From the NCBI RefSeq assembly GCF_900115165.1, contig NZ_FOVP01000001.1:186001-250000 (forward strand): a stretch of DNA of 64,000 bases. The letters run 5' to 3'. Numbering within the stretch: position 1 is the stretch's first letter; each line of letters opens with the position of its first letter. Below are positions 30,353 to 47,333 of this stretch, piece after piece. Origin of the DNA: Roseovarius lutimaris (GTDB taxonomy: Bacteria; Pseudomonadota; Alphaproteobacteria; Rhodobacterales; Rhodobacteraceae). The notes under the pieces are model-generated. The model did no database searches, was not told the origin of the DNA, and was given only the letters and a program-made list of their open reading frames with translations. The position numbers and the translations under genes were made by a program.

Positions 30353-30429
30353 GGTCCCGTAGCTCAGCTGGATAGAGTGTTCGCCTCCGAAGCGAAAGGT
30401 CGCGCGTTCGAATCGCGCCGGGACCACCA
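30353..30429 (+). tRNA. tRNA-Arg (anticodon CCG)
   Basis: This is a 77-nt tRNA. Acceptor GGTCCCG pairs perfectly with CGGGACC; discriminator A30426 and encoded CCA 30427-30429 follow. The anticodon stem TTCGC/GCGAA with loop CTCCGAA gives CCG, decoding CGG. The T-arm CGCGCGTTCGAATCGCGCC is canonical. tRNA genes like this are typical integration sites. Confidence 0.97.
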
Positions 30430-31046: not shown

Positions 31047-31512
31047 TGCCTATCTTGCGATTTAAGGACAGCTTAACTGTCTGATCCGCAAGACGAAAGC
31101 AGAGATTCGGTGGTTTTGGACGAGCGGAAGCTAAGTCCGCACAACCGACCTTGGTACATAATGTTATGAAGGTTCGCTTTAGGTCAGAATTACTTGGCGT
31201 TTGGGGCTATATTGCGTGGCGCAGCCCCATGATAGGATTTAGGAAATCCGTTGCATGTCGGCAAAGATGCGCGATGTTGCGCGTCCTCACCCCAATGGCC
31301 GTTGCGCCCGTTTCCGTTTACTTTCATCGCGACAGCGGGCCAAGCTTGTGGCGTGGCCCTGATGCTGCGCCTGTGACCCGACGGAAAGCAAGGCCTGCCC
31401 AAAGTTTTTCGGAATAATCGGTTTGCTTTCCTGAAATAGCCATGCAGGGTAGGGGCATGCCGGGCCGCAAGAGTCCGACAACGAACAATCTGCAACAACA
31501 GGAGATAGAGGT
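31047..31512. other. Intergenic region upstream of the peptide-transporter operon
   Basis: This 466-bp stretch has no supported gene. It contains the second 15-bp direct repeat (31145-31159), a small palindrome GGATTT-AGG-AAATCC (31235-31249), and presumably the promoter of the operon starting at 31513. RBS AGGAGATAGAGG is at about 31500-31511. Confidence 0.45.
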
Positions 31513-33105
31513 ATGTCCTTCAGACTTTCACTATTCGCAGGGGTCGCCTGCGCCGCTTTGGGGGCATCGGTCGCCTCGGCGCAATCGCTGGTCTATTGCT
31601 CGGAAGGCTCGCCCGAAGGCTTTGACCCGGCGCTTTATACCGCTGGCACGACCTTTGATGCGTCAAGCCATCCGATCTATAACCGTCTGACCGAATTCAA
31701 GGTCGGCACCACCGAGGTTTTGCCCGGACTCGCCGAAAGCTGGACAGTGTCCGAAGACGGCAAGACGGTCACCTTCAACCTGCGCAAGGGCGTCAAGTTT
31801 CATTCCAACGCCAATTTCACCCCGACGCGTGATTTCAACGCCGATGACGTGATCTTTTCGTTTGATCGCCAGGGCAACCCCGACAACCCCTATAACGAGG
31901 TTTCCGGCGGCACCTGGGAATATTTCGCCGGCATGTCGATGCCCGAACTGGTCAGCAGCATCGAAAAGGTCGATGACTATACCGTCAAGTTCAACCTGAC
32001 CCGCCCCGAGGCGCCGTTCATTGCCAATATGGCGATGGATTTTGCCTCGATTGTGTCCAAGGAATACGCCGATGCGATGATGGAGGCGGGCACCCCCGAA
32101 ATGCTCAATCAGGCGCCGATTGGCACCGGTCCCTTCGCGTTCCAGGCCTATCAGAAAGACGCCGTGATCCGCTATCTGCGCAATGACGCCTATTGGGGCG
32201 ATGCCGCCAAGGTGCAATCGCTCATCTTTGCGATCACCCCTGATGCAAGCGTGCGCTATCAGAAGGTTCAGGCAGGCGAATGTCACGTCATGGCCTATCC
32301 CAACCCGGCGGATGTTCAGGCGATGAAAGATGCCGAAGACGTCGTGGTGATGGAACAGGAAGGCCTGAACGTCGGCTATCTTGCCTATAACACCAAAGTT
32401 GCCCCCTATGACAATCCCAAGGTGCGCAAGGCGCTCAACATGGCGATTGACAAGCAGGCGATCATTGACGTGGTGTTCCAGGGCTCTGGCCAGATTGCCA
32501 AAAACCCGATCCCGCCGACTATGTGGTCCTATAACGAGGCCGTTGAAGACGACGCTTATGATCCCGAGGCGGCCAAGAAGATGCTGGCTGACGAAGGTGT
32601 CAGCGATCTGAACCTCAAGATCTGGGCAATGCCGGTACAGCGGCCCTATAACCCCAATGCGCGCCGTATGGCCGAACTCATGCAAGAGGATTTCTCGAAA
32701 ATCGGCGTCAACGTCGAAATCGTGTCCTATGAGTGGGGCGAATATCTTGATCGCTCGAAAGCCGAGGATCGCGATGGTGCGGTTCTGCTTGGCTGGACCG
32801 GGGACAACGGTGATCCCGACAACTTCCTTGCCGTTCTTCTGGGCTGTGATGGGGTTGGCGCCTCGAACCGTGCCCAATGGTGCAATGAAGAGTTTGACGA
32901 GGCGATCAACGCGGCCAAGGTTCTGCCGACGCAAGCCGAACGCACGCCGCTTTATGAAAAGGCGCAGGTGATCTTCAAGGAACAGGCGCCCTGGGCGACG
33001 ATCGCGCATTCGGTTGTCTACATGACCATGCGCCCCGAGGTTGACGGTTATGTGGTTCACCCGCTGGGTGGCCATATCTTCAATCAGGTCGGCCTGTCGC
33101 AATAA
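31513..33105 (+). CDS. Peptide-type ABC transporter substrate-binding protein (DppA-like)
   Basis: The product is 530 aa. Sec signal peptide: MSFRLSLFAGVACAALGASVASA, cleaved before QSLVYC. The SBP_bac_5 domain follows: EGSPEGFDPALYTAGTTFDASSHPIYNRLTEF, then LAESWTVSEDGKTVTFNLRKGVKFH, typical of dipeptide/heme-binding DppA. It has paired Cys (YCSEGSPEG, LLGCDG, QWCNEE). It feeds the permeases and ATPases of the same operon. A strong hairpin follows its stop. Class I assignment is secure, but the true ligand could be any small amide or peptide. Confidence 0.92.
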   Translation: MSFRLSLFAGVACAALGASVASAQSLVYCSEGSPEGFDPALYTAGTTFDASSHPIYNRLTEFKVGTTEVLPGLAESWTVSEDGKTVTFNLRKGVKFHSNANFTPTRDFNADDVIFSFDRQGNPDNPYNEVSGGTWEYFAGMSMPELVSSIEKVDDYTVKFNLTRPEAPFIANMAMDFASIVSKEYADAMMEAGTPEMLNQAPIGTGPFAFQAYQKDAVIRYLRNDAYWGDAAKVQSLIFAITPDASVRYQKVQAGECHVMAYPNPADVQAMKDAEDVVVMEQEGLNVGYLAYNTKVAPYDNPKVRKALNMAIDKQAIIDVVFQGSGQIAKNPIPPTMWSYNEAVEDDAYDPEAAKKMLADEGVSDLNLKIWAMPVQRPYNPNARRMAELMQEDFSKIGVNVEIVSYEWGEYLDRSKAEDRDGAVLLGWTGDNGDPDNFLAVLLGCDGVGASNRAQWCNEEFDEAINAAKVLPTQAERTPLYEKAQVIFKEQAPWATIAHSVVYMTMRPEVDGYVVHPLGGHIFNQVGLSQ

Positions 33106-33121
33106 GCGACCGATCACGACC

Positions 33122-33160
33122 GGGGACAGCGCCGCGCGCGCTGTCCCCTTCGCCTTTTTT
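33122..33160 (+). terminator. Intra-operon terminator/attenuator after the DppA-like gene
   Basis: GGGGACAGCGC (33122-33132) and GCGCTGTCCCC (33138-33148) form an 11-bp perfect stem with a 5-nt loop. TTCGCCTTTTTT follows, so termination should be partial to strong. The M24 gene and transporter genes downstream would then be made from read-through or an additional promoter, giving excess binding protein. Confidence 0.75.
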
Positions 33161-33174
33161 GACTGCGAGGTTGC

Positions 33175-34293
33175 ATGACGCAGCTCCTTTCTTCTCGTTT
33201 GGCTGAATATGCAGGCGTGGCCGCCGCACTTGGGGTGGATGCCGTGGCGCTTGTGCCGGGGCCGAATTTTACCCGCGCGCTCGGGCATGGTTTCATGAGC
33301 CATGAACGCCCGTTTCTGGTGGTTATCCCCGCAAGCGGGAGCATGACCACGCCCGCCGCCCTGGTGCCGAATCTGGAGCTTGGAAGCTGGGATATGGTCG
33401 GCTTTGACGGGGTGACCTTTGATTGGCGCGATCAGACCGGATATGACAAGGAATTCGCCGCGCTGACGGCGCATCTTGGCCTGCAATCTCTGGCGGTCGA
33501 AGGACAGGTGATGCGGGTTTTCGTGCATCACGCCCTGATGCGCGCGCAGCCCGGATTGCGGATCATCGATGCCGAGCGCCAGATTTCCGCGCTGCGCATG
33601 ATCAAGACCGACGATGACATTGCCGCCCTTCAGGCCGCGATCGAGATTTCCGAGCGCGCCCTTGCACGCACGCTGGATCAGATAGGCCTTGGCCAGAGCG
33701 AAAAGGCTATCGAACGCGCCCTGGTAGAGGCCCTGTTTGCCGAGGGTGCCGATGATCTGTCATTCACGCCGATTGTCGCGGCGGGTGACAATTCCGCGCG
33801 CCCGCATGCCAGTGCCCGCGCCGATTATGCGGTAAAGGCGGGCGATGCCCTGTTGCTCGATTTCGGCGCGCGCAAGGATGGCTTTGCCGCCGATATCACC
33901 CGCACCGTGTTTCTCGATCACGCCACCGACGAGGGGCGCGCGGTCTATGACACGGTCCTGCGCGCCAACCTAAAAGGGTTCGAGGTGACACGCGCCGGCG
34001 TCACGGCGCATGCCATTGACGATGCGGTCACCGGCGTGCTTGAGGCCTCGCCCTTTGCCGACCGGATTCGCACCAAGACCGGACACGGCCTTGGGCGTGA
34101 CGTCCACGAGGCGCCCTATATCATGCGCGGCAACCCGATGCCGCTGCCTGCCGGAACGGTCTATACCAACGAGCCGGGGCTTTACGAGATCGGCAAATTC
34201 GGCGTGCGCATCGAAGACGACGTGCTTGTGACTGACACCGGCGCGCTCTCCCTCACCACATTCCCAAAGGAGCTCATGGTGCTGAAATGCTGA
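33175..34293 (+). CDS. M24 family metallopeptidase (Xaa-Pro peptidase/creatinase fold)
   Basis: The product is 372 aa. An N-terminal creatinase-like domain (about 1-135) is followed by the pita-bread catalytic domain. Metal ligands are visible in order: Asp in LLLDFGARKDG, Asp in ADITRTVF, His in TGHGLGRDVHEAP, Glu in TNEPGLYE, Glu in VRIEDDVLV. It hydrolyses X-Pro peptides or other small amide substrates (creatinase and ectoine hydrolase share the fold). Its place inside the transporter operon suggests that it acts on the imported compound. The stop overlaps the start of the next gene. Confidence 0.88.
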   Translation: MTQLLSSRLAEYAGVAAALGVDAVALVPGPNFTRALGHGFMSHERPFLVVIPASGSMTTPAALVPNLELGSWDMVGFDGVTFDWRDQTGYDKEFAALTAHLGLQSLAVEGQVMRVFVHHALMRAQPGLRIIDAERQISALRMIKTDDDIAALQAAIEISERALARTLDQIGLGQSEKAIERALVEALFAEGADDLSFTPIVAAGDNSARPHASARADYAVKAGDALLLDFGARKDGFAADITRTVFLDHATDEGRAVYDTVLRANLKGFEVTRAGVTAHAIDDAVTGVLEASPFADRIRTKTGHGLGRDVHEAPYIMRGNPMPLPAGTVYTNEPGLYEIGKFGVRIEDDVLVTDTGALSLTTFPKELMVLKC

Positions 34294-35294
34294 ATTATGT
34301 CCTGAGCCGTCTGTTGACCTTTGTGCCCACCTTTATCGGGGTCACGCTGATTTCCTTCATGTTCATCCGGCTGCTGCCGGGCGATCCGATCATCGTCATG
34401 GCCGGAGAGCGCGGGGTCAGCCCCGAACGCTATGCCGAGCTATCGGCGCAATTTGGCTATGACCGGCCGGTATATGTGCAGTTCTTCGAGTATCTGACCG
34501 GGGTCTTGCAGGGCGATCTTGGCACTTCCTTTGTCACCAAACGCCCGGTCTGGGATGAATTTTTCGCGCTGTTTCCGGCCACGCTTGAGCTCTCAATCTG
34601 CGCGATGATCTTTGCCGTGGTGCTTGGCCTGCCCGCCGGGGTCATTGCCGCCGTCAATCGCGGCAAGTTCTTTGATCGCGCGTTGATGTCGACCGCGCTT
34701 GTCGGCTATTCGATGCCGATTTTCTGGTGGGCGCTTTTGTTGATCATCGTCTTTTCCGGCAACCTTCAGTGGACGCCGGTCTCGGGCCGGATCGACCTTT
34801 TGTACTATTTTCCCGATCCGACCGGCTTCATGCTGATCGACAGTATCGCCTCGGGGCAGAAGGGCGCGTTTCTCTCGGCTGTGCGGCATCTATTGCTGCC
34901 GACGATCGTGCTTGGCACCATCCCGCTGGCGGTGATCGCGCGTCAGACCCGCTCGGCCATGCTTGAGGTGCTGGGCGAGGATTATATCCGCACCGCGCGC
35001 TCCAAGGGCCTGTCGCCGGGGCGCATCAACGGCATCCATGCCCTGCGCAACGCCCTGATCCCGGTCATTACCGTGATCGGCCTGTCGGTCGGCACCTTGC
35101 TGGCGGGCGCCATCCTGACCGAGACGATCTTTAGCTGGCCGGGGATCGGCAAGTGGATGGTCGATAGCATTTTCCGGCGCGATTACCCGGTGGTGCAGGG
35201 CGGCCTGTTGCTGATTGCGGTGATGGTGATGATCGTGAACCTGACCGTGGATATGCTCTATGGTGTGATCAACCCCAAGATCAGGAAACGCTGA
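34287..35294 (+). CDS. Peptide-type ABC transporter permease (DppB-like)
   Basis: The product is 335 aa. The N-terminus LNYVLSRLLTFVPTFIGVTLISFMFIRLLPGDPI is the family signature, with about six transmembrane helices and the EAA loop EDYIRTARSKGLSPGRINGIHALRNALIPV. It overlaps the M24 stop by 7 bp and the DppC-like start by one base. Confidence 0.93.
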   Translation: MLNYVLSRLLTFVPTFIGVTLISFMFIRLLPGDPIIVMAGERGVSPERYAELSAQFGYDRPVYVQFFEYLTGVLQGDLGTSFVTKRPVWDEFFALFPATLELSICAMIFAVVLGLPAGVIAAVNRGKFFDRALMSTALVGYSMPIFWWALLLIIVFSGNLQWTPVSGRIDLLYYFPDPTGFMLIDSIASGQKGAFLSAVRHLLLPTIVLGTIPLAVIARQTRSAMLEVLGEDYIRTARSKGLSPGRINGIHALRNALIPVITVIGLSVGTLLAGAILTETIFSWPGIGKWMVDSIFRRDYPVVQGGLLLIAVMVMIVNLTVDMLYGVINPKIRKR

Positions 35295-36211
35295 TGACCG
35301 AGACAACCTCAAACGAGGGGCAGGGCGCCCCGGTGGATGGCCCCGAACGCCCCGGACAGCTGCGCGAGTTCTGGTTCTATTTCCGCGAGAATCGTGGCGC
35401 GGTGATTGGCCTTTGGATTTTCGCGGTCTTTGCGTTCCTTGCCCTGTTCGGGCCATGGATCGCGCCGCATGACGCCACCGCGCAGGCCCGCGAATTTACC
35501 CTGTTGCCGCCGGCCTGGCAGGAGGGCGGAAGCTGGACATATGTGCTTGGCACCGATCCGTTGGGGCGCGATATGCTGTCGCGGCTGATCGTCGGTGCGC
35601 GCTATTCGTTCTTTGTCGGGGTCGTGGTGGTCACGGTTGCCGCGTCTGGCGGGATCATCATCGGCCTGCTGGCAGGGTTTGCGCCGAAATGGGTCGATAG
35701 CATCATCATGCGGGTGATGGATATCATCCTGGCCTTTCCCTCGCTCCTGCTGGCGCTGGTTCTGGTGGCGATCCTGGGGCCGTCGCTGACCAATGCGATG
35801 ATTGCCATCGCCATCGTGCTGCAACCCCATTACGTGCGCCTGACGCGGGCCAGCGTGATGTCCGAGCTGCAAAAAGACTATGTCACCTCGGCGCGTGTCG
35901 CCGGTGCCGGGCTTGCGCGGCTGATGTTCGTGACGGTTTTGCCGAACTGTCTTGCGCCGATCATCGTGCAGGCCGCGCTGTCGTTTTCGACCGCCATTCT
36001 TGACGCCGCCGCGCTCGGCTTTCTGGGGATGGGGGCACAGCCGCCGACGCCGGAATGGGGCACCATGCTGGCCGAGGCGCGCGAATTCATCCTGCGCGCG
36101 TGGTGGGTCGTGACCTTTCCCGGTCTCGCGATTCTTGTCACCGTGCTGGCGATCAATCTGATGGGGGATGGGCTGCGCGATGCGCTCGATCCCAAGCTGA
36201 AACGGAGCTGA
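35294..36211 (+). CDS. Peptide-type ABC transporter permease (DppC-like)
   Basis: The product is 305 aa with the N-terminal OppC_N region (FWFYFRENRGAVIGLWIFAVFAFLALFGPWIAPHDA), the motif LGTDPLGRDMLSRLIVGARYSF and EAA loop QKDYVTSARVAGAGLARLMFVTVLPNC. It pairs with the DppB-like permease; start and stop interlock (TGATG). Confidence 0.93.
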   Translation: MTETTSNEGQGAPVDGPERPGQLREFWFYFRENRGAVIGLWIFAVFAFLALFGPWIAPHDATAQAREFTLLPPAWQEGGSWTYVLGTDPLGRDMLSRLIVGARYSFFVGVVVVTVAASGGIIIGLLAGFAPKWVDSIIMRVMDIILAFPSLLLALVLVAILGPSLTNAMIAIAIVLQPHYVRLTRASVMSELQKDYVTSARVAGAGLARLMFVTVLPNCLAPIIVQAALSFSTAILDAAALGFLGMGAQPPTPEWGTMLAEAREFILRAWWVVTFPGLAILVTVLAINLMGDGLRDALDPKLKRS

Positions 36212-36215
36212 GGCC

Positions 36216-37193
36216 ATGTCACTGCTACGCATTCGCAATCTGAGCGTTGATTTTGCCACCGCATCGGGCGCCTTTCGTGCCGTTGACGGGGTCGATCAGG
36301 ACGTCGATACCGGCGAAATTCTGGCCATCGTCGGCGAAAGTGGGTCGGGCAAATCGGTGTCGATGCTGGCGCTCATGGGGCTCTTGCCCTGGACCGCGAC
36401 CATCACCGCCGACGAGATGAGCTTTGACGGCAAGGACCTGCTGAGGATGGACACGCGCGCCAAGCGCCGCATCATCGGCAACGATCTTTCGATGATCTTT
36501 CAAGAGCCGATGTCCTCGCTCAACCCGTGTTTCACGGTCGGCTGGCAAATCAAGGAATCGCTGCGCTATCACCTCGGGCTTGACCGGCGCGCGCGCCACG
36601 CCCGCGCGATCGAACTGTTCGAACAGGTCGGCATCCCCGATCCCGAAAAGCGCCTATCGGCCTTCCCGCACCAGATGTCGGGCGGCATGAACCAGCGCGT
36701 GATGATCGCCATGGCGATTGCCTGCAAACCCAAGCTCTTGATCGCGGACGAGCCGACAACCGCGCTTGACGTGACCATTCAGGCGCAGATTCTCGATCTC
36801 TTGGCCACCCTGCGTGACGAGACCGGCATGGGCCTTGTGCTGATCACCCACGACATGGGCGTGGTGGCCGAAACCGCAGAGCGCGTGAGCGTGCAATACG
36901 CCGGTCAGAAGGTCGAGGAACAGCCGGTTGTCGATCTTTTCGCCACCCCGCACCACCCCTATACGGCGGCGCTTCTGGATGCGCTGCCGGAACGGGCGAC
37001 GGACAAGTTCCTGCCGACCATCCCCGGTGTGGTGCCGGGACAGTTTGACCGTCCTTCGGGGTGCCTGTTTTCGCCGCGCTGCAAATTCGCGGATGCAAAA
37101 TGCAAGACCACGCCGCCGCCGCCGCTTGGCGCCGATCTTGGCTATGCGCGGTGTTTTTATCCCGTCAACTCTGACAAAAGGATCGCATCATGA
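36216..37193 (+). CDS. Peptide-type ABC transporter ATP-binding protein (DppD-like)
   Basis: The product is 325 aa. Walker A GESGSGKS, signature [12 protein letters not shown], Walker [13 protein letters not shown] and H-switch LITHDMG are present. The C-terminal oligopeptide-transporter extension with Cys residues ([15 protein letters not shown]) is typical of Opp/DppD proteins and may bind a cluster or metal. Confidence 0.93.
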
Positions 37194-38149
37194 CCGAACC
37201 GGTGATGCAGGCGCGCGCGCTTGAGCGCCATTACAACGTCAGCGGCGGGCTGTTTGGCAAGACGCGGGTTCTGCGGGCGGTCGGCGGGGTCGATTTTGAC
37301 CTGACCCCCGGCAAGACCCTTGCCGTGGTCGGCGAAAGCGGCTGTGGCAAATCCACATTGGCGCGCATGGTGGCGATGATCGAAGAGCCGACCGAGGGCA
37401 CGCTGAGCCTTGATGGCAGGCCTGTGCTGCCGCAGGAATGGGCCGATCTGCGCAAATCGGTGCAGATCGTGTTTCAGGATCCCTATGGCTCGCTTAACCC
37501 GCGCCAGCGGATCAGTGCGATCTTGCAGGAGCCGCTGATCATCAACCGCAAGGATATAAGCAAGCAGGACCGTCAGGCCAAGGCGCGCGACATGCTGCGC
37601 CTTGTCGGGCTTCGCCCCGAGCATTTCGACCGATATCCGCATATGTTTTCCGGCGGTCAGCGTCAGCGGATCGCGATTGCCCGCGCCTTGATGCTTGACC
37701 CCAAGGTCGTGGTGCTCGACGAGCCGGTTTCGGCGCTTGATCTGTCGATCCAGAGCTCGATCCTGAACCTCTTGCGCGAATTGCAGGAACGGCTGCATCT
37801 GGCCTATCTTTTCATCAGCCACGACCTCAGTGTGGTGCGCCATGTGGCGGATGATCTGATCGTGATGTATCTTGGGCGCGCGGTTGAAAAGGGCCCCAAG
37901 GCGGATGTCTTTGCAAACCCGATGCACCCCTATACCAAGGCGCTTTTATCGGCCACGCCGCGCACCACGCCGAATGCGGCCAAGGAGCGGATCAAGCTGA
38001 TCGGCGAACTGCCCTCGCCGATGGCGATCCCCGATGGCTGTCCCTTCGCGCCGCGATGCTGGAAGGTGCAATCCGACTGCCGCGACGCGGTGCCGCCGCT
38101 TGCGGGCGGGACCCATAGCGCCGCCTGTTTTTACCCCGAGGGCGATTGA
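37190..38149 (+). CDS. Peptide-type ABC transporter ATP-binding protein (DppF-like)
   Basis: The product is 319 aa. Walker A GESGCGKSTLARM, QDPYGSLNPRQ (family Q-loop), signature FSGGQRQRIAIARAL, Walker B VVVLDEPVSALDLS, H-switch FISHDLSVVRHV, and the C-terminal GCPFAPRCWKVQSDC extension. Its ATG overlaps the DppD-like stop. It completes the importer. Confidence 0.93.
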   Translation: MTEPVMQARALERHYNVSGGLFGKTRVLRAVGGVDFDLTPGKTLAVVGESGCGKSTLARMVAMIEEPTEGTLSLDGRPVLPQEWADLRKSVQIVFQDPYGSLNPRQRISAILQEPLIINRKDISKQDRQAKARDMLRLVGLRPEHFDRYPHMFSGGQRQRIAIARALMLDPKVVVLDEPVSALDLSIQSSILNLLRELQERLHLAYLFISHDLSVVRHVADDLIVMYLGRAVEKGPKADVFANPMHPYTKALLSATPRTTPNAAKERIKLIGELPSPMAIPDGCPFAPRCWKVQSDCRDAVPPLAGGTHSAACFYPEGD

Positions 38150-38186
38150 GCGCGTCCCGTCGGGCGTGGTGCGGAAAGGGCAGGGC

Positions 38187-38990
38187 ATGAAGGTTGGCAT
38201 AGCGGGCACCGGCGCGATTGGTCTCACTGTGGCGCGCGCCCTCGATGCGGGCGAAATCCCCGGTTTCACCCTTACCGCGATAAGCACCCGCCGGGCCGAG
38301 CGCGCGGCAGAGGTTAACGCCGCGCTTACCACGCCGGTGCCGGTCGATGATTTTGCCGGGCTGGCCGCGCATTGTGACGTGATTATCGAATGCCTGCCAC
38401 CACAGCTTTTCCCCGAGATCGCCCGCCCGGTCCTTTTGGCCGGCAAAACCCTTGTCGTGCTCTCAGCAAGCCAGCTTTTGCAGCAGGGCGATCTTGTCGA
38501 TCTGGCAGAGGCGCATGGCGGCAAGATCATCGTGCCCTCGGGCGCCATGCTTGGGCTTGATGCGATAAAGGCGGCCGCGGTGGGCCGGCTCACCTCGGTC
38601 AGCATGACAACCCGCAAGCCGGTCGCCGGGCTCATCGGCGCGCCCTATCTTGTCAAAAACGGCATCGACCTCGGCGGCATCACAGAGCCGGTCTGTATCA
38701 TGTCCGGCAGCGTCTCGGAGATCGCCCGCGAATTTCCCGCCAACGTCAATGTTGCCGCCGCCATTAGTCTGGCCGGGCTTGGCCCTGATCTTACAAAGCT
38801 GGAAATCTGGGTCGACCCAAAGGTGACGCGCAATGTTCACAGCGTGCGGGTTACCTCCGACAGCTCTGATTTCACCATGTCGATTGAGGGGCGCCCAAGC
38901 GATGACAACCCCGCCACCGGGCGGATCACCGCGCAAAGCGTGATCGCCCTGTTGCGCCAGATGACGGCGACCCTGCGGATCGGCACCTGA
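38187..38990 (+). CDS. Aspartate dehydrogenase-like (NadX family) oxidoreductase
   Basis: The product is 267 aa. The Rossmann motif MKVGIAGTGAIGLTVARALD opens the protein. DVIIECLPPQLFPEIARPVL and VPSGAMLGLDAIKAA match NadX; EFPANVNVAAAISLAGLGPD and the C-terminal NPATGRITAQSV are family hallmarks. Known members convert L-aspartate to iminoaspartate with NAD(P)+; in catabolic neighbourhoods such as this the substrate may be another 2-amino acid or imine. Start at 38187 (GGAAAGGGCAGGGC upstream), 37 bp after the ATPase gene. Confidence 0.8.
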   Translation: MKVGIAGTGAIGLTVARALDAGEIPGFTLTAISTRRAERAAEVNAALTTPVPVDDFAGLAAHCDVIIECLPPQLFPEIARPVLLAGKTLVVLSASQLLQQGDLVDLAEAHGGKIIVPSGAMLGLDAIKAAAVGRLTSVSMTTRKPVAGLIGAPYLVKNGIDLGGITEPVCIMSGSVSEIAREFPANVNVAAAISLAGLGPDLTKLEIWVDPKVTRNVHSVRVTSDSSDFTMSIEGRPSDDNPATGRITAQSVIALLRQMTATLRIGT

Positions 38991-38996
38991 GCGGCG

Positions 38997-40610
38997 CTAG
39001 ATTTCCGCAAGAATAAGGTCAGCCGCGCGATGCGCCAGCATCATGGTTGGCGCATTGGTATTGGCCGAGGTGAGATTGGGAAAGACCGAGGCATCGACCA
39101 CGCGCAGCCCTTCTATGCCATGCAGCCGCAGGCCTGGGTCAACCACCGAACTCGCCGCATCCGCCCCCATCCGACAGGTGCCGACCGGGTGAAACACCGT
39201 GCCAGAGCGGTGGCGGAAATCCTCAAGGATCGCGGCATCGTCCATCTCGCGCAGATCCTCGCCCATGGCCGAGGCCGCAAGGCCGCTCAGGGCTGTGCTG
39301 GTGATAAGACGCTGGCACAGACGCCCGCCCGCGATCACCTGCGCGCGGTCTTCCTTGGTGGCCAGCGAATTGGGCCGGATGAGCGGCGGGGCCGCCGAAT
39401 CATTGGCGCGCAAATCAATGCGCCCGCTGCTTGTTGGGCGCGAGGGTTGAAAGCCAAGGATAAAGCCGGGAAACGGATCTGGCTTGATTACACTGCGGCT
39501 GCCGTTGGGCGCGGTGGTATAGGTGACCGGGTTGAAATAAAGCTGTTGGTCGACGCGGTTCACCCCATCAGACGAGCGGAAATAGCCGCCGCATTGATTG
39601 ACCGAAAGCGCTAGCGGCCCGCGCCGCGTCAGGGCATAGCGCAGGGCGGCGCGCAGCTTGCCAAGAAACGGCGCCAATTCGTTGTTGAGGGTGCGTTCGG
39701 TGGCGCGAAAATAGTAATTGATGCCAAGGTGATCCTGAAGATTGCCGCCCACATGCGGCGCATCCATGATCGGCGTGATGCCAAGCGATTTCAGGTGCTC
39801 TGCCGGACCGATACCCGATATCTGCAACAGGCAGGGCGAGGCCACGCTGCCCGCCGAAAGGATGATTTCGCGCCCCGCGCGCACGGTTTTGACCGTGCCC
39901 CGGTGGTGATACTCGACCGAGACCGCCCGCCGCCCGTCAAAGCCGATCTGACCAACCATCGCGCCGGTGACAAGCGTCACATTGGCCCGCCTGAGCGCCG
40001 GTTTAAGAAAGGCGCGTGCCGAGGAATTGCGCCGCCCGCCGCGCGTGTTGATCCGGTAGATCGTCGCGCCTTCCGAGGTCGTGCCGTTAAGATCATCGCA
40101 GAGCGGCAGGCCAAGTTCGCGGGCCGCGTCAAAGAAATGCCGGTTGACCGGGTGGATCTGATCCGAGACATCCTGCACATGCATCGCGCCGCTGCCCACC
40201 CGCGTGCCATCCGGGGCGACCTGGGTTTCCATCGCCTCATAGGTTTCGCGCACCGTGTCCCAGCCCCAGCCGGTAGCGCCAGACGCCTCCCAATCGTCGA
40301 AATCATGCGGCAAGCCGCGCGCATAGACCAGCGCGTTGATCGACCCCGATCCGCCCACGCCCTTGCCGCGTGGCCAATAGGCGCGCCGCCCGGCGAGGGC
40401 CGCGTCCGGCTCGGCCTCGTATTTCCAGTTTACACGCTCGTCGAAAAACGTCTTGCCATAGCCAAGCGGCAGCGCGATCCAGGGCGAGCGGCCACGCCCG
40501 CCTGCCTCAAGGATCAGAACGCTGTGGCGGCCATTCGCACTTAGCCGCTCGGCCAGCACGCAGCCTGCCGACCCCGCCCCGATGATGATGAAATCATACT
40601 CTGCAGTCAT
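38997..40610 (-). CDS. GMC-family FAD alcohol oxidoreductase
   Basis: The product is 537 aa. FAD motif YDFIIIGAGSAGCVLAERLS at the N-terminus; GMC signature 1 near PRGKGVGGSGSINALVYARG; signature 2 near GSVASPCLLQISGIGP; catalytic His in TVFHPVGTCRMG; C-terminal ANTNAPTMMLAHRAADLIL. It resembles choline dehydrogenase/alcohol dehydrogenase members and should make an aldehyde suited to the aldehyde dehydrogenase in the neighbouring operon. It converges on the NadX-like gene with 6 bp between stops. Start 40610 (MTAEYDF). Confidence 0.9.
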   Translation of the reverse strand: MTAEYDFIIIGAGSAGCVLAERLSANGRHSVLILEAGGRGRSPWIALPLGYGKTFFDERVNWKYEAEPDAALAGRRAYWPRGKGVGGSGSINALVYARGLPHDFDDWEASGATGWGWDTVRETYEAMETQVAPDGTRVGSGAMHVQDVSDQIHPVNRHFFDAARELGLPLCDDLNGTTSEGATIYRINTRGGRRNSSARAFLKPALRRANVTLVTGAMVGQIGFDGRRAVSVEYHHRGTVKTVRAGREIILSAGSVASPCLLQISGIGPAEHLKSLGITPIMDAPHVGGNLQDHLGINYYFRATERTLNNELAPFLGKLRAALRYALTRRGPLALSVNQCGGYFRSSDGVNRVDQQLYFNPVTYTTAPNGSRSVIKPDPFPGFILGFQPSRPTSSGRIDLRANDSAAPPLIRPNSLATKEDRAQVIAGGRLCQRLITSTALSGLAASAMGEDLREMDDAAILEDFRHRSGTVFHPVGTCRMGADAASSVVDPGLRLHGIEGLRVVDASVFPNLTSANTNAPTMMLAHRAADLILAEI

Positions 40611-40694
40611 TGCCGCCCGCCATTTTGTGGGTTTGCCCTGCAAGCGTTACAAACTGTGATTTGCGGGCGAAAGCGAAAACTGCGCGGGCGCCGT

Positions 40695-41543
40695 TCAACC
40701 CGGGTTATTTTCACCAAGCCGGGCCACCAGCGGGGCGAACCACTCCCAGTTTTGTGCCGCCGTGTCATTGACGATCAGGTATTTCTTGCGGGTGTATACC
40801 GGGGCCTCAACCATCTCAAACAGGTCACCGGCGCTGATATGCGGCGCCGCCAAAGCGCGCGGCAGATAGGCCGAACCGCCCCGATCAAGCAGGAACTGAA
40901 GCGCCCACCACGAGCTGTCAAAGCTGATCCGGGCGATGCCCGCATCATGATAGCTTTCGCCATGGCTGCGCCGAAAATCTTCGCCGTGATCGACAAAGAC
41001 ATAGGACGGGTCGGCCTTGATCGGCGTTACCGCGCGATCGGAATAAAGCACAAGCTCTTCGGCGGGCAGGGCGTGCACGGTCTGGGCGCCGTGGGTCACC
41101 GTCTCATAGCTCAGAATCACATCGACACGCCCCGAGCCAAGCCATTCCTCAAGATCGCGCGCATTGCCCTGATGCACCGAGACCGCCATTTCCGGGTGCC
41201 CCGACACCACGCCGTCAAAAAACGCGCGCCCCGGTCCATGCCAAAGCTCGCGGTCACAGCCAAAGGTACAGACCGAACTTAGCCCCGCAGGCAGGCCGGT
41301 TTCATAGCGCGCCTGCCGCCATAACCCGTTGATAACCCGTGCATAACGCAAAAGTTTGGTGCCCGCAGGCGTCAGCGTGGTGCCCGATTTCTGACGGTTC
41401 AGAAGCTGCTGGCCAAGCTCGTCCTCAAGCGTCTTGAGGCGCGCGGTGACGGTCGATTGGGTCACGTGAAGCTTTTGCGAGGCGCGCACCAGATTGCCGG
41501 TATCGACAATCGCCAGAAAGGTTTGCAAGGCGGTGAGGTTCAT
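40695..41543 (-). CDS. LysR-family transcriptional regulator
   Basis: The product is 282 aa. The N-terminal helix-turn-helix is standard: LTALQTFLAIVDTGNLVRASQKLHVTQSTVTARLKTLEDELGQQLLNR. The C-terminal effector domain follows. It is divergent from the flavin reductase operon and immediately upstream of the GMC gene on the same strand, so it probably controls both. Start at 41543 fits the family N-terminus. A LysR-type dyad lies 26 bp upstream of it (41569). Confidence 0.92.
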   Translation of the reverse strand: MNLTALQTFLAIVDTGNLVRASQKLHVTQSTVTARLKTLEDELGQQLLNRQKSGTTLTPAGTKLLRYARVINGLWRQARYETGLPAGLSSVCTFGCDRELWHGPGRAFFDGVVSGHPEMAVSVHQGNARDLEEWLGSGRVDVILSYETVTHGAQTVHALPAEELVLYSDRAVTPIKADPSYVFVDHGEDFRRSHGESYHDAGIARISFDSSWWALQFLLDRGGSAYLPRALAAPHISAGDLFEMVEAPVYTRKKYLIVNDTAAQNWEWFAPLVARLGENNPG

Positions 41544-41568
41544 GATTGGCGCTCTCAATTCGAATTTA

Positions 41569-41585
41569 TTGCACATAGTGCGCAA
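41569..41585. promoter_or_regulatory. Candidate LysR operator in the divergent promoter
   Basis: TTGCACATAGTGCGCAA is an imperfect 17-bp dyad containing T-N11-A, the usual LysR-type recognition pattern. It sits in the 126-bp spacer between the lysR and flavin reductase genes, the AT-rich part of which is 41560-41640. Confidence 0.55.
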
Positions 41586-41669
41586 AATAATTCGTTATCA
41601 AGAATTGAAATAGTATGCCAGTTTAACATGAACCTTTTCCAGGGCTTTGAAATGACGAAAGGACCGGCG

Positions 41670-42200
41670 ATGCTGACTGAGACCAGACCACTTGTAGAGC
41701 GCGATCGCTTTATTGGCGCGATGCGGCGGGTTGCGGCCTCGGTGACGGTGGTCACGACTGACGGTGTTGCCGGGCGCTTTGGCGCGACGGTCAGCGCGTT
41801 TTCCTCTGTTTCCGCTGATCCGCCGTCGGTTCTGATCTGTCTGAATGCCGCGAGCCGGATCGCCAAGGCGGTGGCACGGAATGGCCGCTTTTGCGTGAAT
41901 GTCTTGCCCGAATCCGGGCCGGAGCTTGCCGACCGCTTTGCCGGGCGCCACGACGCGCAGATCGCCGATCGCTTTTCGGGGGTGAACACCTTTGGCCCGC
42001 CGGGCAGCGCGCCGCTGATTGATGGGGCAACCGGATTTTTCTGCGAGGTACAACAATGCGTGACCTCGGGTAGCCATCTTATCGTGATCGGCACTGTGCA
42101 TGATGTTCTGGATGGCGAGGCACCGCCGCTGGCCTGGCGCGAGGGCGGCTATCACCGGGTCGTGCCGACCGAGAGCGCGCACCGGATGGCGGCAGAATGA
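41670..42200 (+). CDS. Short-chain flavin reductase (HpaC/RutF-like)
   Basis: The product is 176 aa. FIGAMRRVAASVTVVTTDGVAGRFGATVSAFSSVSADPPSVLICLNAASRIAKAV is the flavin_reduct fold with FMN-binding positions; GSHLIVIGTVHDV and a C-terminal His region (YHRVV) follow. It supplies reduced flavin to the luciferase-like monooxygenase two genes downstream. Start at 41670 has GAAAGGA with ideal spacing; 41652 is an alternative. Confidence 0.88.
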   Translation: MLTETRPLVERDRFIGAMRRVAASVTVVTTDGVAGRFGATVSAFSSVSADPPSVLICLNAASRIAKAVARNGRFCVNVLPESGPELADRFAGRHDAQIADRFSGVNTFGPPGSAPLIDGATGFFCEVQQCVTSGSHLIVIGTVHDVLDGEAPPLAWREGGYHRVVPTESAHRMAAE

Positions 42201-43687
42201 CAACGGGCAGGGCGATGATGAAGACCTATAAAATGCTGATTGAAGGGGCCTGGCTCGCGGCCTCGAACGGGGCGACGTTCGAGACCTTCAACCCGGCCAC
42301 CGGCACGGTTTGGGCCACCGCCCCCGAGGCCACGGCAGAGGATGTCGATCGAGCCGTGCGCGCCGCGCATCGCGCCTGTTATGAAGGGCCTTGGGCCAGC
42401 ATGACGCCAACAGCGCGCGGTCAATGCCTGCACCGGTTGGGGGATCTTTTGGCCGAACGCTCCGAGGCCTTGGGCGAGACAGAAACCCGAGATTCCGGCA
42501 AAATGTTCAAGGAAACCCGCTGGCAGGCAAAGTATATCAGTGAGTTTTTCCACTTCTACGCCGGCGCCGCCGACAAGATCAGCGGCGAGACCCTGCCGAT
42601 CGACAAGCCCGGCATGTTCGTCTTTACCAACCGCGAACCGCTTGGCGTGGTGGCCGCCGTCGTGCCCTGGAACAGCCAGCTTTTCCTGACCGCCGTCAAG
42701 ATCGGCCCGGCGCTTGCGGCCGGTAACACGGTGGTGCTGAAAACCAGCGAACACGCCCCCGCCGCGATCCTTGAGTTTGGCGAACTGCTGGCCGAGGCGG
42801 GCTTTCCCGACGGGGTGGTCAATATCATCACCGGCCATGGCGACCCTTGCGGCAAGGCCCTGACAAGTCATCCGCTTGTGGCGCGCATCAGCTTTACCGG
42901 CGGGCCGGGTGCGGCGCGCCACGTGTTGATGAACTCGACGCAGAATTTCGCGCAAGTCAGTCTTGAGTTGGGCGGCAAATCGCCCTTCATCGTCTTTGAG
43001 GACGCCGATCTTGAAAGCGCGGTCAATGGCGCGGTGGCCGGAATTTTTGGTGCCTCGGGGCAAAGCTGCGTCGCGGGCTCGCGCCTTATCGTGCACGAGG
43101 ATGTGGCGGACGAATTCCTTGCCCGCCTCACCGCCATCGCGCGCGATATCGTGATTGGCGACCCGATGGCGGAGGCAACCCAGATGGGCCCGCTCTGCAC
43201 CATGGGCCAGGTTGAGACCATCGAGCGCGAATTACGCCAAGCCGTGGCCGAGGGCGGCACCATCCTCTGTGGTGGCAAGCGGGCGGCTGCGGGGCAGCTG
43301 TTCTTTGAGCCGACGATTGTCGAGTGCCCGAGTGCCGACCTTAAAATTGTCGATACCGAGCTTTTCGGTCCGGTCCTCTGCGTGCTGCGCTTTGCCACCG
43401 AGGCCGAGGCGCTCGCCCTTGCCAACGATAGCGAACACGGGCTTGCGGCGGGGATTTTCACCCGCGATAGCGCGCGGTCCCTGCGGATGAGCCGCGCGGT
43501 GCGCGCGGGGATCGTCTGGGTCAATACCTATCGCGCGATTTCCCCGGTGGCCGAATTTGGCGGCACCAAGGGTTCCGGCTATGGGCGCGAAAGCGGGTTT
43601 CAGGCGGTCTATGACTACACCCGCCCCAAGACCGTCTGGATGAACATGTCGGACGAGCCGCTCGCCAATCCGTTTCAAATGCGCTGA
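42197..43687 (+). CDS. NAD(P)-dependent aldehyde dehydrogenase
   Basis: The product is 496 aa. Motifs: VVPWNSQLFLTAVKIGPALAAGNTVVLKTSE (coenzyme), FTGGPGAARHVL, catalytic Glu in LELGGKSP, catalytic Cys in ASGQSCVAGSR, and C-terminal GGTKGSGYGRESGF. It oxidises an aldehyde to a carboxylate in the cytosol. Its start overlaps the flavin reductase stop (ATGA). Confidence 0.93.
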   Translation: MTTGRAMMKTYKMLIEGAWLAASNGATFETFNPATGTVWATAPEATAEDVDRAVRAAHRACYEGPWASMTPTARGQCLHRLGDLLAERSEALGETETRDSGKMFKETRWQAKYISEFFHFYAGAADKISGETLPIDKPGMFVFTNREPLGVVAAVVPWNSQLFLTAVKIGPALAAGNTVVLKTSEHAPAAILEFGELLAEAGFPDGVVNIITGHGDPCGKALTSHPLVARISFTGGPGAARHVLMNSTQNFAQVSLELGGKSPFIVFEDADLESAVNGAVAGIFGASGQSCVAGSRLIVHEDVADEFLARLTAIARDIVIGDPMAEATQMGPLCTMGQVETIERELRQAVAEGGTILCGGKRAAAGQLFFEPTIVECPSADLKIVDTELFGPVLCVLRFATEAEALALANDSEHGLAAGIFTRDSARSLRMSRAVRAGIVWVNTYRAISPVAEFGGTKGSGYGRESGFQAVYDYTRPKTVWMNMSDEPLANPFQMR

Positions 43688-43701
43688 GAAAGGACAAGAC
43701 A

Positions 43702-44760
43702 ATGAAATTTCATCTGGCAATCAATCTTGAGCGCCTCGATGCTTCGCTTGATATGAAGGCGGTGCGCGATCACACGCTTGAGATGGTGCAAATGGCCGAG
43801 GCCGCCGGGTTTGAGGTTGCCTGGGCGGCAGAGCATCACGCGCTTGAGATGACCATCGCGCCCAATCCGTTTCAGATCCTGACATGGTGGGGCGAGCATA
43901 CAAAGACGATCCGCCTTGGTGTCGGTGTCGCCAATGCCGCCTATTGGCACCCGATCAAGCTTGCCGGTGAGGCGGCGATGCTTGATCTGCTCAGTGACGG
44001 GCGGCTTGAGTTTGGCATCGGCTCGGGCGCCTATCAGCGCGAGTTTGACCGCATGATGCCCGGTCTCGATCAGCGCGACAGCTGGCAATACATGCAGGAA
44101 TCGCTTCCGGTGGTGCAAAAGCTATGGGCCGGCGATTATGCGCACGCCGGCACCTATTGGCAGTTTCCCACCGCCACGTCTTGCCCCAAGCCGGTGCAGG
44201 ACAAGGTGCCGGTCTGGGTTGCCGCGCGCGCGCCGATCACCTTTGATTACGCGGTCGAACATGGCTGTGACATCATGAGCTGGCCGCTGACCATGCCGTT
44301 TTCCGAGGCCGAGGCGTATCGCGCGCGGCTTGACGATGCGATTGCCAGGAATGGCGGGCGCTATGATGGGCGGTGGGCCCTGATGCGTCACACGTCTGTT
44401 TATGAGACCGAAGAGGACCGCAGTAACGCAATGACCTCGCTGCGCCGGGTGCTGGGGCAATTCGGCAACCTGATGATGAAGCGCGGCGAGGTGGTGAACG
44501 GCTTTCCCGATCCGGTGCCTCTGGAAGAGATGGCGGGCAACGCGCGGGTTGATCCCGAGATGCTTGAGGAAAACCTCATGTTCGGGTCGCCCGATGCGGT
44601 GGTCGAAAAGCTTGCCAAATATCAAGAGCTTGGCGTCGGTGCCTTTATCTATTACGCCTCAATGGGTCTGGATATGGAGCAGCAGAAACGCTCGCTTCGC
44701 CTGTTCATAGACAAGGTGATGCCCGCCTTCGCCCAAAAGGAGCTGGCCCATGCCGGTTGA
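43702..44760 (+). CDS. Luciferase-like (LLM) flavin-dependent monooxygenase
   Basis: The product is 352 aa, bacterial luciferase TIM-barrel type: DHTLEMVQMAEAAGFEVAWAAEHHALEMTIAPNPF, IRLGVGVANAAYWHPIKLAGEAAMLDLLSDGRLEFGIGSGAYQREF. These proteins use reduced flavin and O2 to oxidise amines, amides, ketones or sulfonates. Operon partners (flavin reductase and alpha/beta hydrolase) recall the Rut pyrimidine pathway (RutA/RutF/RutD), but this is shorter and of the general LLM class. RBS AAAGGA is at 43688. It overlaps the next gene by 11 bp. Confidence 0.88.
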   Translation: MKFHLAINLERLDASLDMKAVRDHTLEMVQMAEAAGFEVAWAAEHHALEMTIAPNPFQILTWWGEHTKTIRLGVGVANAAYWHPIKLAGEAAMLDLLSDGRLEFGIGSGAYQREFDRMMPGLDQRDSWQYMQESLPVVQKLWAGDYAHAGTYWQFPTATSCPKPVQDKVPVWVAARAPITFDYAVEHGCDIMSWPLTMPFSEAEAYRARLDDAIARNGGRYDGRWALMRHTSVYETEEDRSNAMTSLRRVLGQFGNLMMKRGEVVNGFPDPVPLEEMAGNARVDPEMLEENLMFGSPDAVVEKLAKYQELGVGAFIYYASMGLDMEQQKRSLRLFIDKVMPAFAQKELAHAG

Positions 44761-45346
44761 GATCAGGCGCACGCTCACATTGGTGCAAACCACCTTTAAG
44801 GAAGGCTTCAAGGAGGTGGCAGACCCCACCAAGCTTGTTTCGGCGCTTGCAATCATCCGCAACCCTTGGTTCGGGCGCGGCCATGTCGAAGACCTTGGCC
44901 CCGAAATCCGCGCCGCCGGGCCGGTGCTTGGCCAGCTTCTGACCGATATGATCCTTGCGGTGACCGGCGACACGCTTGAGGGCTATGGCAAGGCCTCGAT
45001 TGTCGGCATGGGCGGCGAGATCGAGCATGCGCAAGGGCTGACGCATACGCTGTGGTTTGGCAACAAGTTCCGCGATGCGCTCAAGGCCAAGACCTATCTC
45101 GCCTTTACCAACACCCGCGGCGCGGCGGGCACATCGCTCATGATCCCGTTGATGGACAAGGACGATGCCGGACGGCGCTCGCATTATCAGACGATCCACA
45201 CCACCGTGCCCGACGCCCCCGCCGATGACGAGATCATCATCGCGCTTGGTGCCTCGGTGGGCGGGCATCCCAATCACCGGATCGGCGACCGCTACGCCGA
45301 TCTACGCGAGATGGGCCATGATCCTGATAATCCGGCGGGGGTCTGA
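44750..45346 (+). CDS. AA_synth (DUF1185, PF06684-like) protein
   Basis: The product is 198 aa: EIRRTLTLVQTTFKEGFKEVADPTKLVSALAIIRNPWFGRG, GGEIEHAQGLTHTLWFGNKFRDA and MDKDDAGRRSHYQTIHTTVPDAPADDEIIIALGASVGGHPNHRIGDR match the AA_synth family. Members recur in catabolic operons with LLM monooxygenases, but no reaction is established. The overlap with the LLM gene and 0-bp gap to the next gene show that it is part of the pathway. Confidence 0.82.
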   Translation: MPVEIRRTLTLVQTTFKEGFKEVADPTKLVSALAIIRNPWFGRGHVEDLGPEIRAAGPVLGQLLTDMILAVTGDTLEGYGKASIVGMGGEIEHAQGLTHTLWFGNKFRDALKAKTYLAFTNTRGAAGTSLMIPLMDKDDAGRRSHYQTIHTTVPDAPADDEIIIALGASVGGHPNHRIGDRYADLREMGHDPDNPAGV

Positions 45347-46144
45347 ATGGTTCTGTCGGCGGGCGGCACCGCCTATGACCTGAGTGGCCCCGAGGGCGCG
45401 CCGGTTGTCGCGCTCATCCATGGGCTTGGCCTGACGCGCCAAAGCACATGGGGGGCCATCGCGCCAATGCTGTCGCAACGGTTTCGCGTGCTCAGCTATG
45501 ATCTGTGCGGGCATGGTCAGTCTATCTTGCCGCCCGATGGCTCCAGCCTGACGGTGCTCTCTGAGCAACTGATCGCGCTGATGGATGAGCTTGGGATTGG
45601 GCAGGCGGCCCTCGTCGGCTTTTCGCTTGGCGGGATGATCAACCGGCGCTGTGCCATGGATCATGGCGGGCGGGTTTCGTCGCTGGTGGTGCTCAATTCG
45701 CCGCATGAGCGCGGGCCCACCTTGCAGCAACAGGTCGAGGCCGCCGCGCGCGACGCGGGCGCAGGCGGGCCGGAGGCGACGATTGACGCCGCCCTTGCGC
45801 GGTGGTTCACCGAAGATTTCCGGACAGCGCACCCCGATGCGGTGGCCGCAATCCGGCGCGTGGTCTTGGCCAATGATCCGGTAAATTATGCGCAGCACCG
45901 CCAGGTGCTTGCCGAAGGGGTGACCGAGTTGATCCGCCCAAAGATAGCGATCCGTCACCCGACCCTTGTGATGACCTCGCAATTCGACAGCGGCAGCACG
46001 CCCGCAATGGCGCAAACCATCGCCGATGAGATCGACGGCGCAGAGGTGATCACCGTGCCGGGACTGAAACACCTTGGCCTGATCGAGCAACCGGAGCTGT
46101 TTACCGCACCGATCATCGCGTTTCTGACAGCCTGCGTAAATTGA
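45347..46144 (+). CDS. Alpha/beta hydrolase (RutD/PcaD-like)
   Basis: The product is 265 aa. VALIHGLGLTRQSTWGAI is the oxyanion region, VLSYDLCGHGQS, nucleophile elbow GFSLGGMINR, Asp near SQFDSGS and His in GLKHLGLIEQP. It probably cleaves an amide, carbamate or ester intermediate; it is the last gene of the operon. The start codon directly follows the AA_synth stop. Confidence 0.88.
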   Translation: MVLSAGGTAYDLSGPEGAPVVALIHGLGLTRQSTWGAIAPMLSQRFRVLSYDLCGHGQSILPPDGSSLTVLSEQLIALMDELGIGQAALVGFSLGGMINRRCAMDHGGRVSSLVVLNSPHERGPTLQQQVEAAARDAGAGGPEATIDAALARWFTEDFRTAHPDAVAAIRRVVLANDPVNYAQHRQVLAEGVTELIRPKIAIRHPTLVMTSQFDSGSTPAMAQTIADEIDGAEVITVPGLKHLGLIEQPELFTAPIIAFLTACVN

Positions 46145-46195
46145 ACAAAACCCCGCCGATATGGCGATCAGGCAATGGGTCTTGGACTATTGTTC

Positions 46196-46222
46196 CATAA
46201 TTCGCAAAAACCCGGAATTATG
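46196..46222. promoter_or_regulatory. Perfect spaced palindrome upstream of the rhodanese operon
   Basis: CATAATTC (46196-46203) and GAATTATG (46215-46222) are exact inverted repeats with an 11-bp spacer, 163 bp before the rhodanese start. The core ATTC...GAAT resembles sites reported for persulfide-responsive ArsR repressors (SqrR type), but those have an 8-bp spacer; the identity of the regulator is therefore open. Confidence 0.5.
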
Positions 46223-46384
46223 ATCGCTCTTCCGTGGCAACATCCGAATAGGATCACGAAAATCCAGAGCGTTCATTGCCATGGTTCCTTTTACGTTCAC
46301 CAAAAGATGAATATGACGCAGGCGACCTTGTTGTTACCCTGTGACAAGCCTAGGTTCGGCGCCAGAGAAACAAGGGGATTTACC

Positions 46385-47326: not shown

Positions 47327-47333
47327 GGTAAAC

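Follow-up and report, generated by a model that had tools for sequence, protein, structure and literature searches.

A 14.6-kb gene block of Roseovarius lutimaris appears to combine two modules, a peptide-uptake operon and a monooxygenase operon with the gene families of trigonelline breakdown

Two-component flavin monooxygenases act in the breakdown of pyridine or uracil, and a trigonelline pathway, TgnABCDEF (tgn), was reportedly described in Acinetobacter baylyi by Perchat et al. in 2018, in which we take TgnC to be the dehydrogenase of the ring-fragment aldehyde and TgnD to be a hydrolase. TgnB is a luciferase-like monooxygenase (LLM; PMC11354265), TgnE is stimulated by TgnF, a homologue of the DUF1185-family protein HcdD (PMC7913881), and the DUF1185 family has two structures and a guess at a role in amino-acid metabolism (PMC2954203). 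Here we describe a gene block at positions 31513–46144 of a 64,000 nt stretch of Roseovarius lutimaris DNA (the window, G000:C26:186001-250000; the genome itself is G000), which holds a Dpp-type ATP-binding cassette (ABC) importer with an M24 peptidase (module A), a NadX gene, a GMC oxidoreductase gene, and a LysR gene divergent from a five-gene monooxygenase operon (module B). The block appears, from comparison across genomes, to be two self-sufficient and independent modules that are neighbours by chance; module B would perform a tgn-like, flavin-dependent opening of an N-methylpyridinium betaine with homarine as first candidate, and we give this combined reading an even chance.

The gene families named for this block in a preliminary description, made from the sequence alone, were all matched by profile search in the order given, and the features are as follows.

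31513–33105, plus strand: module A, DppA-type dipeptide-binding protein (PF00496, E 8e-100; NF043070 DppA, 767 bits, cut-off 1005)
33122–33148, plus strand: hairpin between the binding-protein and M24 genes, from folding
33175–34293, plus strand: module A, M24 peptidase of the Xaa-Pro dipeptidase/aminopeptidase type (PF00557, Creatinase_N; PDB relatives)
34287–35294, plus strand: module A, DppB-type permease (profile matches)
35294–36211, plus strand: module A, DppC-type permease (profile matches)
36216–37193, plus strand: module A, DppD-type ATPase (profile matches)
37190–38149, plus strand: module A, DppF-type ATPase (subfamily model NF008453, 484 bits, cut-off 408)
38187–38990, plus strand: NadX-type L-aspartate dehydrogenase (NF009825, 344 bits, cut-off 253, scored on the longer open reading frame (ORF) from 38034)
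38997–40610, minus strand: GMC oxidoreductase (PF00732/PF05199)
40695–41543, minus strand: module B, LysR regulator, transcribed away from the operon (PF00126)
41544–41669, no strand: divergent control region with AATTCGAAT and then AATTCGTT 32 bases on (box scan)
41670–42200, plus strand: module B, flavin reductase, TgnA role (PF01613)
42197–43687, plus strand: module B, aldehyde dehydrogenase (ALDH), TgnC role (PF00171)
43702–44760, plus strand: module B, LLM, TgnB role but of its own clade (PF00296)
44750–45346, plus strand: module B, PF06684/DUF1185 (AA_synth) protein, TgnF-like (PF06684, E 1e-56)
45347–46144, plus strand: module B, alpha/beta hydrolase, presumed TgnD role (PF00561)

Judged from the translations, four starts would be corrected, to 38187 instead of 38034 for NadX and 41670 instead of 41457 for the flavin reductase, and on the minus strand to 41543 instead of 41585 for LysR and 40610 instead of 40643 for GMC. 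The picture of a block packed with overlaps is borne out at five gene joints, which overlap by 1–11 bases, and at three more with a spacing of 0–14 bases, but not by the spacers of 69 bases between the binding-protein and M24 genes and 126 bases between LysR and flavin reductase, nor by the GMC and LysR genes, which lie on the minus strand with all other block genes on the plus strand.

Searches of one set of 292 genomes of the order found the M24 protein in 60 (E<=1e-60) and the LLM in 48 (E<=1e-80). With the window's LLM clade (clade I) counted as LLM matches of at least 60% identity, which gave 19 genomes, both proteins occurred together in 8/292 genomes and were linked in two of the eight (G000 and G123, both of the window's genus), their starts being about 10.5 kb apart in each; the genome lists and the genus table for the co-occurrence counts were compiled by hand from the search outputs. 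In the other six, the two genes were 527 kb apart (G111), about 141 kb apart (G266) or on separate contigs (G027, G106, G251 and G017, the last with an M24 match of only 45%), and linkage was seen in R. marisflavi too. Neighbourhoods of up to 20 kb were fetched for 19 of the other 58 M24 genomes and for 19 LLM loci besides G123. The arrangement of binding protein, M24 and DppBCDF was complete in 17 of the 19 other M24 loci (not in L102 and L104), a DppA-type binding protein likewise being found in 17/19, and LLM, DUF1185, flavin reductase, NadX and GMC all went unmatched in these loci. The importer was absent from all 19 fetched LLM loci besides G123; DppF matches of 30–33% in these 19 were read as ABC ATPases of other systems. 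Among the best 80 of 545 LLM relatives (the named loci from here on), importer and NadX genes lay near the LLM only in R. marisflavi, and at L164, with an LLM 93% identical to that of the window, the GMC, LysR and module B genes are preceded by unrelated ORFs. Since modules A and B each recur apart in relatives, the proposal that the whole block imports and degrades one compound fails, rejected on linkage across genomes, and the search for shared context that had been suggested as its check came out against a single pathway, with NadX relatives also found in varied surroundings.

The five-gene monooxygenase operon itself is present and recurs, but is not invariant: ALDH, LLM, DUF1185 and hydrolase genes formed one group in 11 of the 20 LLM loci fetched, G123 included, with the rest rearranged or reduced, and the flavin reductase was matched in 8 of these 11. 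Reduced forms include ALDH and LLM alone in Roseovarius sp. TE539 (G206; L070/L166), and LLM, DUF1185 and LysR without a matched ALDH in R. nubinhibens ISM (G170; L072/L197).

Module B and the tgn pathway share a flavin reductase, an LLM, an ALDH, a DUF1185 protein and, by family, an alpha/beta hydrolase in one operon, with flavin reductase and LLM making up a two-component oxygenase (TgnA and TgnB). We compared five tgn-type clusters, two from Acinetobacter (L107 and L108, from A. baumannii and A. junii, not from A. baylyi) and one each from Leisingera (L109), R. johnstonii pRL10 (L110) and S. meliloti pSymA (L111), which would be trigonelline clusters by analogy with the Acinetobacter tgn genes. 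Each of the five clusters has all of these families, presence of the hydrolase being judged by the clusters' own homologues, and a succinate-semialdehyde dehydrogenase (SSADH) is present in L107, L108, L110 and L111 and unmatched in L109. Identities to the window were 53–55% for the ALDH (over 489–493 of 496 residues), 55–62% for DUF1185 and 37–40% for the LLM, and the hydrolase matched at 27–30% in three of the five clusters, with no match at E<=1e-5 in the two from Acinetobacter. Module B thus differs from tgn in its LLM, in gene order, in having LysR where tgn has a GntR gene, and in having only one ALDH in the locus and no SSADH (TgnE), which four of the five compared clusters have. The record holding L107 (NZ_CP077849.1) is labelled as a plasmid yet is 3.66 Mb long, and is probably a chromosome or wrongly labelled. 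The pyrimidine Rut pathway also has an LLM, a RutF-like flavin reductase and an alpha/beta hydrolase, but module B scores weakly against it, has no RutB- or RutC-type gene in the operon, and has ALDH and DUF1185 genes. That no known pathway has exactly this gene set, as first stated, holds for the whole block so far as we looked, but not for the five-gene operon, which consists of the trigonelline families. The genome has a second DUF1185 gene (L106, G000:C32:83000-102999, 9734–16148) beside MoCoBD, 2Fe-2S and FAD_binding_5 genes in the same direction; this locus with molybdenum-hydroxylase subunits is possibly part of another N-heterocycle pathway.

A FastTree tree of 114 LLM rows (arbitrary root, some rows being the same genome twice; partial or broken LLMs of L173, L182, L203, L206, L213, L214, L233 and L239 dropped) placed 14 tgn-type rows on one side and the window's group of 93 rows on another, with support of 100 each, and seven rows from A. 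fabrum pAt, Thalassospira, Caballeronia, G195 and G078 in between. The window LLM does not group with the tgn-type LLMs, and its nearest named relative is that of R. marisflavi DSM 29327 (95%). The motif E44-H45-H46, a histidine being catalytic in luciferases, is invariant in 114/114 rows, and position 108 is serine in 93/93 rows of the window's group and arginine in the other 21. By their neighbours the named loci comprise 30 of subtype Ia (LysR or a thiamine diphosphate (ThDP) enzyme), 30 of subtype Ib (RidA, EchA or BKACE) and 20 unassigned, several of the latter on short contigs; the subtypes are defined by the neighbour genes themselves, which makes counts of those genes circular. In subtype Ib (L003, L004, L204, L207, L210, L211 and others), ALDH and LLM are followed by EchA, HADH, BKACE, Pot-type ABC transporter, acyl-CoA dehydrogenase and acid-CoA ligase genes, with RidA, hydrolase, flavin-reductase-like and DUF1185 genes divergent from this run. 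Named clade members include SAR116, Planktomarina, HTCC2150, HTCC2083, Granulosicoccaceae and Ruegeria conchae/denitrificans, and also Tabrizicola and Acidimicrobiaceae metagenome-assembled genomes and a soil Aminobacter.

In two of seven same-genus loci (G130 and G074), a betaine-type ABC transporter (OpuAC, ProW-like and ATPase genes) and an arginase-family gene lie beside module B, and downstream follow genes for a ThDP enzyme, TauD, CMD and HTH-cupin proteins and a GATase_6/GXGXG/Glu_synthase trio, read as N-methylglutamate synthase; ProW-like genes were near the LLM in seven of the named loci, and trio genes in three. The synthase-like large subunit (E<=1e-120) was found in 96/292 genomes, four of them (G060, G141, G274 and G289, none a clade-I carrier) with a partial or 53–56% match. 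It co-occurs with the clade-I LLM, in 17/19 carriers versus 79/273 genomes without it (p 2e-7), also with the own genus left out (10/12 versus 75/269, p 1.6e-4) and at the level of genera (9/11 versus 34/101, p 0.003), and carriers of M24 have no such excess (18/60 versus 78/232). The subunit gene lies within 20 kb of the LLM in four of the 19 carriers (G074, G130, G176 and G027), and R. lutimaris itself has the trio with a glutamine-synthetase-like gene on contig C43, where IclR, DAO and hydantoinase A/B genes follow (L252, 1794–12645). From the betaine transporter and trio near kin and the co-occurrence with the synthase, an N-methylated ring is our best guess, and homarine is favoured because of its abundance in the sea, with values of up to 3% of particulate carbon reported in a Pacific study (PMC8269262); a later correction reportedly gives those values as overstated (PMC10134881).

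By analogy with the tgn pathway, we infer the following course for the substrate and chemistry of module B. The flavin reductase would supply reduced flavin to the LLM, which would oxygenate and so open the ring of an N-methylated pyridinium betaine; the resulting N-formyl-N-methyl enamine aldehyde would be oxidised to the acid by the ALDH. The alpha/beta hydrolase would then remove the formyl group, giving formate and an N-methyl imine that would yield a central acid, 2-oxoglutarate in the case of homarine (N-methylpicolinate), and methylamine, expected to enter the N-methylglutamate pathway, whose genes lie at another place in the genome; DUF1185 would assist as TgnF is said to do. The first idea of stepwise catabolism of a small nitrogen compound looks right for the monooxygenase operon, but not for the whole block. 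Ferrer-Gonzalez et al. are said to have described a conserved homarine catabolism pathway in 2026 (Nat Microbiol 11:1531, as cited in PMC13390433), in which Mgd, of N-methylglutamate metabolism, takes part, a likeness to what is proposed here. What we take to be its operon, homABCDER, would fit module B in having five enzymes and one regulator, and module B may or may not be the published homarine operon.

Several observations weigh against a tgn-like opening of homarine. The LLM differs from the tgn-type rows at many fixed positions, R108 among them, and a pyridinium carboxylate may therefore not be what it acts on. The other LLM carriers, mostly tgn-type, are enriched for the synthase as well (15/29, p 0.02), so that the link is not specific to the window's clade, and the p values for co-occurrence are overstated since the genomes are related. 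No betaine transporter adjoins module B in the window, and the scheme leaves unexplained the ThDP enzyme that was matched in 23 of the named loci and has no close counterpart in the own genome (best 34%). SAR11, presumably a homarine user, was not named among the best 80 of 545 LLM loci. Heal et al. judged a TgnAB-type attack on homarine to be sterically unlikely (PMC8269262), and the authors who cite the stimulating effect of TgnF could not show it for their HcdD (PMC7913881).

Against this background, module B might open another N-heterocycle or cyclic amide that is not N-methylated, the link to methylamine being incidental. This would suit R108S and the other fixed differences in the LLM, the CoA-ester and BKACE genes beside subtype Ib, and a flavin reductase that scores best against RutF, albeit far under the cut-off (99 versus 255 bits); the tgn pathway is nevertheless the closest full-operon match found, and a methylated ring is favoured by the synthase co-occurrence and by the betaine transporters and synthase trio that lie close to some relatives, so we consider this alternative unlikely, while still deserving of attention. 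That module B is simply a trigonelline operon is improbable. The families are the same and the own genome has no second match to a tgn-type LLM (E<=1e-20), but the LLM belongs to a separate clade with fixed differences, no second ALDH of the SSADH type is among the genes typed in the locus, and Leisingera and four Ruegeria genomes (G033, G160, G249 and G262) carry a tgn-type LLM near DUF1185. R. pomeroyi grew better on trigonelline, according to one study (PMC8269262), and the best match to a fragment of SPO0826 in our set of 54 Ruegeria genomes was 93%, so R. pomeroyi is not among them. DUF1185 was present at 37–41% to SPO0826 in 43 of the 54, and in the four genomes listed it lies within 3 kb of an LLM with 39–41% identity to that of the window, the LLM of G262 falling in the tgn-type group; trigonelline in those Ruegeria seems to be served by another cluster.

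Use of an organosulphur compound, with LLM and flavin reductase acting as in SsuD/SsuE or SfnG, is very improbable. It was suggested by the TauD (280 bits, cut-off 313) and Xsc-like (419 bits, cut-off 676) neighbours of the operon in G074, and by the rhodanese and YeeE/YedE genes that begin 30 bases after the hydrolase gene, yet G633 and G643, which have neither module at this site, keep the latter two genes at the same flank, so that these belong to that flank, on which ground the organosulphur pathway was rejected; the LLM also reaches only 51 of 383 bits against SfnG, and none of the genes typed in the block is for a ThDP enzyme or TauD. We think least of all of one 14.6-kb pathway, in which Dpp would import an amide or amine, M24 would hydrolyse it, and GMC, ALDH, LLM and NadX would oxidise the products. 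In the window, G123 and R. marisflavi all genes form one tightly packed group, and M24 shows a weak excess among clade-I LLM carriers (8/19 versus 52/273 others, p 0.02; without the own genus 6/12 versus 52/269, p 0.02). However, the modules are linked in only two of the eight genomes with both and each recurs alone, L164 keeps GMC and module B without module A and NadX, the N-methylglutamate-synthase-like gene is tied to carriers of the LLM and not of M24, and the first LysR box was not found before the importer.

The regulatory region also bears on the separation of the two modules. LysR and flavin reductase genes diverge over 126 bases, and a scan of 99 sequences, 22 of which had both genes matched and divergent, found AATTCGAAT with AATTCGTT (one mismatch each, 15–45 bases apart) in 11 of the 22, compared with a mean of 0.01 in shuffles, the spacers being related to each other. 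The sole perfect AATTCGAATNNNTTGCA of the window is at 41557, and loose matches were as frequent as expected (6 versus 6.1). This suggests local control of module B, with no sign of LysR control for the importer. A LysR gene was matched in 25 of the named loci. In the window, G123, G176, L163 and L164, the gene directly after LysR, in the same direction, is GMC, and L171, L179 and L240 have more distant GMC genes close to the LLM; GMC may thus serve module B in the window and close kin. The NadX gene starts 37 bases after DppF and adjoins module A in the window, G123 and R. marisflavi, and was found in none of the 19 other module-A loci and in one named LLM locus, which from the gene neighbourhoods makes it a local addition. 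NadX relatives (E<=1e-30) occur in 55/289 genomes of the class; in 17 of 20 fetched neighbourhoods (not L153, L159 and L160) the NadX ORF was called, and in these 17 there was no match to LLM, DUF1185, M24 or Dpp, no neighbour family in more than four loci, and one locus with a 37% GMC match. A role of NadX as N-methylimine reductase for homarine, although chemically attractive, was rejected, as NadX was matched in 0/19 LLM loci besides G123 and in 1/80 named ones, and its relatives occur in varied contexts.

Module A consists of an SBP_bac_5 binding protein, two permeases and two oligo_HPY ATPases, the same five components in the same order as the Dpp dipeptide ABC importer, from which it differs in having the M24 gene between binding protein and permease. 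All five proteins score highest against Dpp-type NCBIfam models, and all miss the Dpp equivalog cut-offs (DppA 767/1005, DppB 486/590, DppC 441/483, DppD 436/541 and DppF 429/660 bits), the only Dpp cut-off reached being that of the DppF-type subfamily model NF008453 (484/408). The best PDB relatives of the M24 protein are Xaa-Pro aminopeptidases and dipeptidases. An ectoine hydrolase, which had been raised for M24, is ruled out by the scores against DoeA models (52.7/575 and 50.2/613 bits), and no creatinase model is among the protein's 14 NCBIfam matches, whether the library contains one not having been checked. In the plain reading of the sequence, the importer would take up dipeptides, probably X-Pro, to be cleaved by the M24 peptidase of the same operon. 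A hairpin after the binding-protein gene is a frequent feature of operons that produce the binding protein in excess, and the region 33100–33175 folds at −35.5 kcal/mol, with 0/200 shuffles as stable; it probably lowers read-through from the binding-protein gene into the rest of the operon.

At its flanks, the block is bordered by the following features.

30353–30429, plus strand: tRNA-Arg (CCG), at the left edge of the block
46175–48461, plus strand: rhodanese and YeeE/YedE-type sulphur transporter, right flank, outside the operon (profile matches)

G633 and G643 have SufS and tRNA-Arg(CCG), then a segment read as hpt, coq10, cinA, pgpA, ispDF, dusB and ntrBCYX, and after it rhodanese, sulphur transporter and M23. 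Modules A and B occupy the place of this segment in the window and R. marisflavi, and the segment is not found elsewhere in the window. In G123 (L262), the segment still follows the tRNA, module B being on the same contig at a distance of about 100 kb. A search of 40 Roseovarius genomes found the flank genes SufS and M23 no more than 35 kb apart in five, namely G000, G615 (which has the same block), G633, G643 and G646. An integrase-mediated island was rejected, with no exact repeat of at least the last 13 bases of the tRNA within 30430–49000 and no integrase among the genes typed at the site, which is better called a rearranged junction than an island.

The genes of the preliminary description are thus real and its unit was probably wrong, a peptide-uptake operon standing beside a tgn-like operon with a probable N-methylpyridinium substrate; tight packing in one genome can mislead, and comparison splits the block into unrelated parts. 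Extended to the family, the window's LLM clade would be a large group of ring-opening flavin oxygenases in many marine bacteria, with homarine, or some other N-methylated heterocycle abundant in plankton, as substrate and with two gene arrangements, Ia (in many with the ThDP enzyme) and Ib (with CoA and BKACE genes), each feeding methylamine into the N-methylglutamate pathway and with the trigonelline enzymes only as a sister branch, a view we put forward as tentative and somewhat doubtful. To our knowledge, the ring-opening enzymes for such compounds are little known, and enzymes opening homarine-type rings matter given the reported abundance of homarine in the sea. A five-gene operon under a LysR regulator in a culturable Roseovarius makes the question of its substrate testable.

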